A DNA stretch of 64,000 nucleotides from Halobacteriales archaeon QH_7_66_36 (lineage in GTDB: Archaea > Halobacteriota > Halobacteria > Halobacteriales > Haloarculaceae): NCBI GenBank assembly GCA_003021175.1, contig PXQV01000003.1, forward strand, positions 1 to 64,000. The letters run 5' to 3'. A model generated the notes under the pieces. It was given only the letters and a program-made list of their open reading frames with translations, did not search any database and had not been told where the DNA came from. The position numbers and the translations under genes are program-made. Of this stretch, positions 25,060-28,093 are shown one piece after another; the stretch's first letter is position 1, and each line of letters opens with the position of its first letter.

Positions 25060-25269
25060 GTGACCGAGTACACCACCGTCTCGATTCCGAAGAACCTCGC
25101 CGACCGCGTGGACGAGACCATCGAGGGGACGAGCTTCTCGTCTACCTCCGATCTCGTGCGGTTTCTGCTCAGGAGCATCGTCATCAAACATCAACAGGAG
25201 GGGGAGCTCACCGAAGCCGAGTTTCAGGAGATAGCCGACCAGCTACGCGACCTGGGCTATCTGAGCTAA
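25060..25269 (+). CDS. Ribbon-helix-helix DNA-binding protein (CopG/MetJ-like)
   Basis: A 69-residue protein from GTG 25060: MTEYTTVSIPKNLADRVDET matches the beta-strand and first helix of RHH domains, and TSFSSTSDLVRFLLRS supplies the second helix. The C-terminal part is a short acidic helix (EGELTEAEFQEIADQLRDLG). Likely a small transcription factor or the antitoxin-like half of a pair, but no toxin gene is adjacent. Its last four bases overlap the convergent gene. Confidence 0.85.
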   Translation: MTEYTTVSIPKNLADRVDETIEGTSFSSTSDLVRFLLRSIVIKHQQEGELTEAEFQEIADQLRDLGYLS

Positions 25270-25688
25270 CCCTCGAAGGCGACTTCCGGCGGTGCGGCGT
25301 CGAGCGTCCGCAGGTTCAGGCGACTGCCGCTCCGGTCGAAGGCCGCCAGCGAGTCCCGGTCGTACGGCGGAACGGCGACGAAGACGACTTCGCTGAGGTC
25401 GTCCTCGCGCGTGACCGCGAGCGGCCCAGTGGGGTGGGAGACGAACCGCCCGGCCGCGCTCGGCGTTCCGAGGTCCATCCCGAAGACGGCGCGCACAGAG
25501 TTACCTGCCTCGGGGAGATAGAAGTCGGTGAACACCGGTTCGTCCGGCGCCGGTCCGTCCTCGGGAACCTCCGATAGCTCTCGGGCAGGCCGCGTGGTCA
25601 CGGCGATACTCACCGAGTTCGGATCGCGGTCCGCCGCAATTTCGAGCAGGGCGTCCACCAGCCCCGCTGTCGCGTACAACACGCCCAT
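25266..25688 (-). CDS. Conserved haloarchaeal protein of unknown function
   Basis: A 140-residue protein, MGVLYATAGLVDALLEIAAD at the N-terminus, with VSIAVTTRPARELSEVPEDG and an RDSLAAFDRSGSRLNLRTLD tail. The hydrophobic pattern suggests an alpha/beta fold. No catalytic motif is clear; the family is not recognised. It converges with the RHH gene and lies 130 bp from the small peptide gene, transcribed in the opposite direction. Confidence 0.65.
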   Translation of the reverse strand: MGVLYATAGLVDALLEIAADRDPNSVSIAVTTRPARELSEVPEDGPAPDEPVFTDFYLPEAGNSVRAVFGMDLGTPSAAGRFVSHPTGPLAVTREDDLSEVVFVAVPPYDRDSLAAFDRSGSRLNLRTLDAAPPEVAFEG

Positions 25689-25782: not shown

Positions 25783-25790
25783 ACGTTTAT
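25783..25790 (+). promoter_or_regulatory. TATA box of the 45-aa hydrophobic peptide gene
   Basis: TTTATTA, in the context GTACGTTTATTACCG, lies about 30 nt before ATG 25819, the spacing expected for a leaderless haloarchaeal transcript. A second A/T-rich stretch (CTTATTTC) is 25 bp further upstream. Confidence 0.55.
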
Positions 25791-25818
25791 TACCGATGGA
25801 CGCATCAGACACAGTAGA

Positions 25819-25956
25819 ATGTCCATGGGGAGCAAGGTGACTGGCGCAGTCTCGCAACATCCGAAGGTTGCAGGTGCCCTGCTGGCGACTCTACTATTGC
25901 TCTCGCAGTTCGGGATGGCTATCGGAGGCAACACAATCGGCTCGGTCGGACCGTAA
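25819..25956 (+). CDS. 45-residue hydrophobic peptide next to CHAT protease
   Basis: MSMGSKVTGAVSQHPKVAGA is followed by a hydrophobic run (LLATLLLLSQFGMAIGG) and the end NTIGSVGP. This looks like one membrane-spanning or signal-type helix with a short polar start and a C-terminal Gly-Pro. From memory, haloarchaeal genomes contain many peptides with the same plan (HPK/HPR, then GALL-LLLL-SQ, ending GP), often close to CHAT-domain genes. It is short but has a good promoter and normal codons. Convergent with the CHAT gene, 76 bp between stops. Confidence 0.7.
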   Translation: MSMGSKVTGAVSQHPKVAGALLATLLLLSQFGMAIGGNTIGSVGP

Positions 25957-26032
25957 CCGGAAGAAGACGCCGTCACGTCGAGCAGTCCCGATAGGCAACA
26001 GCACGACTCTTCTCACCTGTAGCTCACACTGC

Positions 26033-28093
26033 TCAGAGTTCTTCCAGTTCCAACTCGTCACTCCAGACGAGCCTGTCGCCCGTCATCACCGGTATCGGCT
26101 CCAGATTCAGGAACTCCTCCAACTCCGACTCCGTCACGTGGAAGCGTGCATTGTCGCTGCCGATGAGGTAGTATTCGTCGTTGCTCGGGAACTGCGGGTG
26201 GGCGATGCCGCCGGGACTGAGGGTGTGGAAGCTGTGATACTCGACGGCGTACTCCCCGTCACCGGCCGACGAGACCTCGACCAGGTTGGGTGTAATACTC
26301 TCAGTCTGCGTAACCTCCATGCTTCCGTCGCCGACGACGATGTACTGGTTCCCGATGACGGACCGTTCGGCGGCGATACTCAGCGCGACCCGGAGCGGGA
26401 AGCCACGGTTCAGCAGGCGGGTCATCGTCCTGCCGACGTTGATCGCGCCGCTGTTGATTACCTCGTTGAGGGTGACGACACCCCCGATGGCACCCCGCTC
26501 GATGAGTGCCATCCCCTGCTGGTAGGAGGTACAGCCGTTGAGAAAGAACGTGTCGACGCCGACGGTGTCGAGCTCGCGCACGTCGAGTGTCCCGTCGGCA
26601 CAGCGAATCCCGTCCGCCTCGATGTGGCCGATGTAGTGGAGATAGTCGCCGTCCGACCGCAAGACGGACCGCAGCTCCGCGGTCGTCATCTCTTCGTGGT
26701 AGGTGAGCTCGAACGGGAGTTCGTCGCGCGAGCCGTACACCTCGCGGGCCCGCTCGTGTTCCTCGCGCATCTCCGTGTCGTTGCAGACGACGACGATCTC
26801 CGCGTCGCCTTCCGACACCTCGCGGTCGAATCGGTTGCGGAACGCCTGTGGAATGGCTTTCGACGCGCCGAGGGGCGCGCCGGGACCGACCCACGCCTGC
26901 TCGACGGAGTCCGTCTGTTCCGGTTCGATGACGGCCGGGTCGAGCATCTCGCCTTCGAGCGGGTCGTCGTGTGACGACCGGGTGAACTCGTTGATGGCCG
27001 CCAACTGCGCGTCGTGCGTGCTCGTCTCCCGGTCGGCGGGCGTCCGCACGACCGCGAGGTCGTCCACGAGGAACGGCACCGTCTCGATGCTGTCGGGCTC
27101 CGGCGTGACGTGAGCGGTGAGTTTCCACCGAGGTACCCACTCCGCGACCGCCTCGTACGGGACCGACAGATACTGTTTGAGCCGCTCTGCCGGCGACGCG
27201 TCGTACAGCGAGGCAAAGCCGAAATCGAGCGCCGACTCGGCGGCGCGAAGCTCGTGTAACGGAATGTCGTACAGCGACCCGGTTCGGGTCAGACAGTCGA
27301 GCAGGAACGCCTGTTTCAGTACGCGTTCGACCTCCCGCTCGAAGCCGTACGGGCCGTCGAGCGGGGGACTCCAGCCGGCGTCGGTGACGAGCCGTGGCTC
27401 CGGGCCGGGCCGAACGTCCGCGCCGAGGTAAAACGCCAGCGGAGCGACGACGAAGATCGGTCCCAGTCGCTCCGGCACTTCGATGTGGATGCCGGTCTCG
27501 GGCGGCTCCAGACTCTCGGGTATCGAGAGGGAGTCGCCCAACTCCAACTCGGGCGGGTGCCCGTGGAGCGTGGGAAACGACCGCTCCGGGGCGGTGGTTT
27601 TCAGCGAGGAGGGAAGCGCCGAGACGGCCTCCATCAGGTCGCTCGGGTCGGCGGTCGTCGTTATCGTCGCCGCGGGTCGCTCGTGATACGACCGCGCGCC
27701 GACCGTCAGGGGTCGTTCGTCGTCGAGTTCGACTCGCATGCCGTCGGAGCCGAGCGCCACCGTGAGCGGGCCGGTGACGCTGACGTACAGCTTGATCGGA
27801 CCGGAAACCTCGAGCAGGTACTCGCCGGCCGGGACGGATCGCTCGGAGAAGCTATCGACCTCGTCGATGACCTCACCGGTGCCGTCGCGGAGATACGCGA
27901 AGTGCGGATTGCCGATAGTGAAGCCCGCGGTCGTCACGGTCGCTGCCGTATCTATCGGATACGGAACGTCGGTCGGGTCGGTCGCGGTCGGCTCGGTGGG
28001 GCCGTCGGTTCTGAGCACGAGTTGCCGTTGCTCGATACGATCCTCGACGACGAGTCCGTGGCCGTCGGCGTCGGCCTCTATAACAACTCTCAT
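26033..28093 (-). CDS. CHAT-domain (caspase HetF-associated) protease
   Basis: A 686-residue protein of the caspase-like peptidase clan. The C-terminal CHAT domain has the catalytic His in YLHYIGHIEADGIRC (His490) and Cys in TFFLNGCTSYQQG (Cys521); both are present, so it should be active. The N-terminal 450 residues contain beta-rich repeats (AGEYLLEVSGPIKLYVSVTG) and a helical linker without a known domain. No signal peptide is visible, so it is cytosolic. It sits opposite a small hydrophobic peptide gene and has no obvious partner of other known systems (such as gasdermin or TPR-CHAT-Cas). Confidence 0.88.
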   Translation of the reverse strand: MRVVIEADADGHGLVVEDRIEQRQLVLRTDGPTEPTATDPTDVPYPIDTAATVTTAGFTIGNPHFAYLRDGTGEVIDEVDSFSERSVPAGEYLLEVSGPIKLYVSVTGPLTVALGSDGMRVELDDERPLTVGARSYHERPAATITTTADPSDLMEAVSALPSSLKTTAPERSFPTLHGHPPELELGDSLSIPESLEPPETGIHIEVPERLGPIFVVAPLAFYLGADVRPGPEPRLVTDAGWSPPLDGPYGFEREVERVLKQAFLLDCLTRTGSLYDIPLHELRAAESALDFGFASLYDASPAERLKQYLSVPYEAVAEWVPRWKLTAHVTPEPDSIETVPFLVDDLAVVRTPADRETSTHDAQLAAINEFTRSSHDDPLEGEMLDPAVIEPEQTDSVEQAWVGPGAPLGASKAIPQAFRNRFDREVSEGDAEIVVVCNDTEMREEHERAREVYGSRDELPFELTYHEEMTTAELRSVLRSDGDYLHYIGHIEADGIRCADGTLDVRELDTVGVDTFFLNGCTSYQQGMALIERGAIGGVVTLNEVINSGAINVGRTMTRLLNRGFPLRVALSIAAERSVIGNQYIVVGDGSMEVTQTESITPNLVEVSSAGDGEYAVEYHSFHTLSPGGIAHPQFPSNDEYYLIGSDNARFHVTESELEEFLNLEPIPVMTGDRLVWSDELELEEL

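Follow-up and report, generated by a model that had tools for sequence, protein, structure and literature searches.

A Gly-Pro-tailed peptide encoded beside a separase-like CHAT protease in Halobacteria: a possible pseudosubstrate partner

What could a 45-residue hydrophobic peptide be doing beside a caspase-like protease? The question is raised by two convergent genes in a 64,000-nucleotide stretch of Halobacteriales archaeon QH_7_66_36 (contig PXQV01000003.1, positions 1 to 64,000, hereafter the window), in which an initial annotation, made from the sequence alone, had seen a CHAT protease facing a short peptide with a C-terminal Gly-Pro. Comparisons across haloarchaea point to a widespread protease-partner switch, and neither it, nor the peptide family DUF7503, nor any haloarchaeal CHAT was found described in the literature searched (mostly without subscription papers, and without preprints). 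CHAT proteases with partners encoded by neighbouring genes are already known (PMC10028731); the new result concerns which part of the partner peptide of the haloarchaeal CHAT matters.

The Protease and the Peptide in the Window

The protease gene and its main features are as follows.
26033-28093, minus strand: gene of a CHAT/separase-like cysteine protease of 686 amino acids, facing the peptide gene in convergent orientation; the two stop codons lie 76 bp apart
26294-26821, minus strand: approximate caspase-fold catalytic domain (residues 425-600), from AlphaFold and Foldseek; its limits were estimated from conservation and the secondary-structure string
26624-26626, minus strand: codon of catalytic His490, conserved in 97% of 115 homologues
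26531-26533, minus strand: codon of catalytic Cys521, conserved in 97% of 115 homologues

Both catalytic residues are thus kept where the initial annotation had placed them. An AlphaFold model of the protein, built from a 99-sequence alignment, reached a predicted local distance difference test score (pLDDT) of 93.1, and its best Foldseek matches in the PDB, at probability 1.00, were SAVED-CHAT (8tl0, the top match), gingipain R and separase (5fby, 5u1t and 7nj1), with procaspase-3 lower. The model supports a predicted protease of the caspase/separase/CHAT fold (clan CD, caspase-hemoglobinase) with an intact His/Cys dyad. The label CHAT therefore holds for fold and dyad and not for the Pfam family: the gathering cut-off of PF12770 was not reached, as the window protein had no CHAT match and the best of ten relatives scored 18.8 bits against 24. 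Since the name rests on the fold, the protein is filed under the fold clan and not as a member of Pfam CHAT. It had no significant Pfam match of its own, single-sequence searches of Pfam, NCBIfam, PADLOC, PHROGs and the PDB and a profile search of the PDB gave nothing decisive, and no export signal was seen.

The peptide gene lies on the opposite strand.
25819-25956, plus strand: DUF7503 peptide gene of 45 amino acids, MSMGSKVTGAVSQHPKVAGALLATLLLLSQFGMAIGGNTIGSVGP, from its open reading frame (ORF) and a match to PF24335 (E 7.9e-11)
25786-25792, plus strand: TATA-like box TTTATTA of the peptide gene, seen in the sequence, with its centre 30 bp upstream of the ATG
25870-25923, plus strand: hydrophobic helix (peptide residues 18-35), from conservation; absent from at least four family lineages
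25924-25953, plus strand: C-terminal tail GGNTIGSVGP, whose Gly-Pro end is the commonest element common to otherwise divergent partner peptides

The ORF closes with Gly-Pro-stop, and its product passes the gathering cut-off for PF24335 (41.8 bits against 27), a family whose Pfam entry gives no function. In 133 related peptides the A+T content peaks near -29/-32 from the chosen ATG, an approximate profile in which the start was taken as the ATG nearest the HP motif; together with the TATA-like box, this is consistent with the promoter and leaderless start that had been proposed. Between the window and locus L206, whose CHAT is 91% identical, nonsynonymous and synonymous divergence (dN and dS) were 0.087 and 0.465 for the peptide (dN/dS about 0.19) and 0.045 and 0.167 for CHAT. 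By this comparison the peptide is under purifying selection which, with the enrichment of Gly-Pro-ending convergent ORFs beside CHAT genes and the diversity of their codons, argues that the ORF did not arise by chance.

The initial annotation had seen no gene of a known CHAT-based system nearby. A type III-E locus would hold a Cas7-11 effector and Csx30/31; neither of the two proteins had a PADLOC match, and the ORFs scanned beside the pair were unrelated. The neighbours of the pair resemble housekeeping genes. A virus origin, or a viral decoy, was rejected because searches of virus collections (phages and IMG/VR) gave no relative of CHAT or DUF7503. A 140-aa ORF (25266-25688, minus strand) without a Pfam or NCBIfam match is divergent from the peptide gene, the two start codons lying 130 bp apart.

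Conservation of the Pair across Halobacteria

The source genome carries three CHAT genes and two DUF7503 genes, and both of the latter are convergent beside a CHAT gene. Among 292 Halobacteria genomes searched, CHAT homologues were present in 271 and DUF7503 in 252. Comparison of the two genome lists by eye placed CHAT in 251 of the 252 DUF7503-positive genomes; the exception, one of the 21 CHAT-negative genomes, rests on a sub-threshold hit. CHAT was the convergent neighbour in all 32 DUF7503 loci read. Read from the other side, a convergent peptide lies no more than about 200 bp from CHAT at 78 of 80 named loci, and it ends in Gly-Pro in 69 of those 78; these loci were tallied by hand and are the closest relatives, hence biased to the clade of the window. 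One locus of the 80 is masked (L247) and another has its peptide 1.4 kb away (L263). At less selected CHAT loci a Gly-Pro-ending convergent ORF was found in 79 of 144 cases, against 9 of 1109 background ORFs (0.8%).

Peptide and CHAT also co-diverge, as judged from their sequence distances (Spearman 0.35, with a maximum of 0.23 in 500 shuffles), and for 59 of 80 loci the nearest CHAT neighbour falls within the top three peptides. A general rather than accidental pairing is strongly supported by these comparisons. The initial annotation had pointed to similar peptides in other haloarchaea and had called for a survey of short ORFs beside CHAT genes; the co-conservation found here bears it out. 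A dozen Haloferax species carry this CHAT together with its peptide. Outside Halobacteria, in the phylum as sampled, CHAT was seen in only four genomes of one other family, where it had no credible Gly-Pro partner.

Retention of the Tail and Loss of the Helix

Which part of the peptide goes with the protease? In most CHAT branches the tiny neighbouring gene encodes a peptide that varies least in its final residues, usually Gly-Pro. The helix pattern is strongly conserved (P, G, L/F, Q, G), and the tail that follows is uncharged and preceded by an A-x-A-like stretch. In 133 Gly-Pro peptides the whole of the post-helix part holds only 13 charged residues in total, and position -4 prefers I, T, V or Y. 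In a 150-CHAT tree (FastTree, local supports only), the state of Gly-Pro without helix requires at least four changes. The lineages concerned are Haloplanus, L125, L120/L147, and the branch of L084/L085 with L080/L195/L202/L203; the versions at L084, L080 and L120 have a single tail.

Haloplanus offers the most striking case. Here an MSE.DSGTVA-like start is followed directly by tail units such as YTADGNGGGISGP in 2, 4, 5, 7, 10 or 13 copies; these 13-residue tandem units replace the hydrophobic helix, and their copy number varies between species (L055, L057, L059, L064, L066, L255, L267). In a congener (G289) the peptide is of the usual DUF7503 kind; its ends align with the repeat peptide across a helix-sized gap, and the CHAT beside it is about 83% identical. 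PF24335 does not detect the helix-less peptides, or those with tandem tails, that accompany this same CHAT family. In another family (f3), CHATs at the glyA locus face convergent ORFs that share a C-terminus (..AKRVSTYGGP, ..KRVSSYGGP and near variants; AKRVS[ST]YGGP) and in part an NRLW-type N-terminal stretch, with little else conserved. As the helix is dispensable and the tail can be multiplied while the protease stays, the tail rather than the helix is probably the part that the protease recognises and that acts on CHAT.

Possible Function of the Peptide

How might such a tail act? Sequence, model and analogy lead us to favour, tentatively, a two-gene module in which a separase-like CHAT protease of clan CD is paired with a small peptide partner of its own. 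This partner would consist of a tether, in most species the hydrophobic helix, and a short uncharged C-terminal tail, usually Gly-Pro-ended. The tail would be recognised by the protease and bind in or close to the active site of CHAT as a securin-like pseudosubstrate, inhibiting CHAT rather than being cleaved by it, and would in this way keep the protease restrained at the membrane. A signal that withdraws or cuts the tail would then free the protease, akin to the way in which a short motif of securin holds separase. In Haloplanus, membrane tethering would be replaced by the 2-13 tandem tails.

Three points favour this pseudosubstrate role. Separase is among the closest folds; securin, a pseudosubstrate inhibitor of separase, reaches the active site through short motifs (PMC10317155); and the peptide is hardly ever found apart from CHAT and is seldom absent from CHATs of the window clade. 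The likeness to separase/securin lies in the clan-CD fold and in a small partner recognised via short motifs. The two differ in that their sequences are unrelated, the haloarchaeal partner is a peptide of about 45 residues with, usually, a hydrophobic helix and a C-terminal motif, and its inhibition of the protease is putative. The helix-less versions carry no export signal, so contact would be cytoplasmic at least there.

Several observations weigh against a membrane-tethered pseudosubstrate. Lysine and arginine precede the helix and almost none follow it, a charge pattern that, for versions with a helix, predicts a tail outside, on the far side of the membrane from a cytoplasmic CHAT. The peptides of about 20 CHATs keep the helix but end differently (..TID, ..SGI, ..AGT/TGI, ..NGGxx), and Gly-Pro is thus the commonest ending and not a strict requirement. 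The older glyA-locus branch of CHATs is mostly without any peptide. While the dyad-less CHATs L093, L094 and L103, for which no peptide was found, count in favour, a protein with C521S (L106) retains one. When CHAT residues were searched for changes that accompany the loss of Gly-Pro, P391 alone emerged, weakly, in 3 of 6 clades and without a significance test.

A substrate or propeptide role is a distinct possibility, nearly as likely as the pseudosubstrate role and its close rival. CHAT would cut the peptide before or between tails and free C-terminal Gly-Pro peptides of about 7-13 residues as a signal. The tandem repeats of Haloplanus resemble a multi-copy precursor, the AKR ahead of VSTYGGP in family f3 and the uncharged tail after its A-x-A-like stretch would suit processing, and one genus has peptides extending past Gly-Pro (..SYSDGPREP, ..SEYSGPTNP). 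Known CHAT proteases also cleave products of neighbouring genes, as Csx29 does with Csx30 (PMC10028731). However, no P1 residue is conserved across tail types, most peptides already stop at Gly-Pro and leave no remainder to cut after it, and helix-less versions without an export signal are awkward for a secreted signal. The type III-E TPR-CHAT (Csx29)/Csx30 and SAVED-CHAT systems, the latter including the best fold match, share with the pair in the window a CHAT-type protease that has a partner encoded by a neighbouring gene. They differ from the pair, which is without a PADLOC match, in that its partner is only a tiny peptide encoded on the other strand.

More doubtful is an activator or scaffold role, in which membrane clustering or tandem tails would gather CHAT molecules and switch them on by induced proximity. 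The helix of most lineages and the tandem tails of Haloplanus could be two routes to multivalent tails, and the strong conservation of the helix pattern suggests specific packing; other helix-less versions (L084, L080 and L120) are, however, single-tailed.

In bacterial gasdermin systems, a CHAT or caspase-like protease lies beside a small membrane-type protein, and the arrangement of helix, tail and neighbouring protease in the window recalls this layout. By analogy, CHAT would remove the tail and the freed hydrophobic helix would permeabilise the membrane, which comes near the cell-death idea of the initial annotation. Such a role is highly unlikely, since tail and CHAT were retained through at least four losses of the helix, and the same losses tell against the helix acting in general as a pore or toxin, an option raised initially and now disfavoured. 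The partner here also differs in its length of about 45 residues, in a hydrophobic part dispensable in those lineages, and in having no gasdermin match in the family searches, which returned DUF7503. Finally, it is scarcely credible that features of the DNA (overlapping stop codons or terminators), and not of the protein, account for the conserved tail: stop codons do overlap by 4 bp in many pairs, but Gly-Pro is kept at gene gaps from -21 to 152 bp, is written with every one of the four Gly and four Pro codons, persists in copies where the peptide is divergently placed on the 5' side of CHAT (L069 and L070), and belongs to a peptide under purifying selection.

Relation to Caspase-Like Activity in Haloarchaea

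Clear caspase homologues have been described as missing from archaea, yet Haloferax extracts show strong caspase-like activity, and the LEVDase/VEIDase/IETDase activity of Haloferax volcanii has no known gene (PMC3615174). The activity and the pair belong to the same organism class, and the window-type CHAT is only a candidate for that gene; H. volcanii served here solely as a DUF7503-positive control genome. A wider reading, which we consider improbable, is a class-wide peptide-controlled caspase switch. Gly-Pro tails would set the state of a separase-like protease, by which a decision on stress, death or signalling is carried out, cognate pairs would diverge in parallel, and this protease would lie behind the haloarchaeal caspase-like activity. 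What gives the pair its interest is that a separase/CHAT-type protease with an intact dyad is near-ubiquitous in Halobacteria, is mostly annotated as a hypothetical protein in plasmid records, and has a partner peptide seldom found without it. Deletion of both genes in Haloferax would make the origin of the caspase-like activity, and the proposed control of this fold by a peptide tail, directly testable.

CHAT Loci with Unusual or Missing Partners

Most peptide-less CHATs form one branch, whose members share a position between glyA (serine hydroxymethyltransferase) and tbsP, a regulator gene. No alternative partner was found among their shared neighbours, the glyA/TbsP locus itself being the shared feature. 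This lineage occurs in many Halobacteria (L002, L072-L079, L192-L195 and L202-L205) and is mostly peptide-less; the third CHAT copy of the source genome (L002, C8:70673-72538) belongs to it. Two apparent absences proved false, with the peptides of L181 and L134 lying about 250 and 820 bp away. The codon of P391, at 26921-26923 of the window (minus strand), specifies a residue that is proline in 92% of CHATs with Gly-Pro peptides.

CHAT genes also occur on large plasmids (Haladaptatus, Halorussus, Natronococcus and others), sometimes several per strain, mostly annotated as hypothetical protein. One genus (genomes G124 and G173; loci L075, L081, L087-L092 and L096-L108) has about 12 CHAT matches per genome and strongly diverged peptides, several of which run a few residues past Gly-Pro, and some of its CHATs have a broken dyad.
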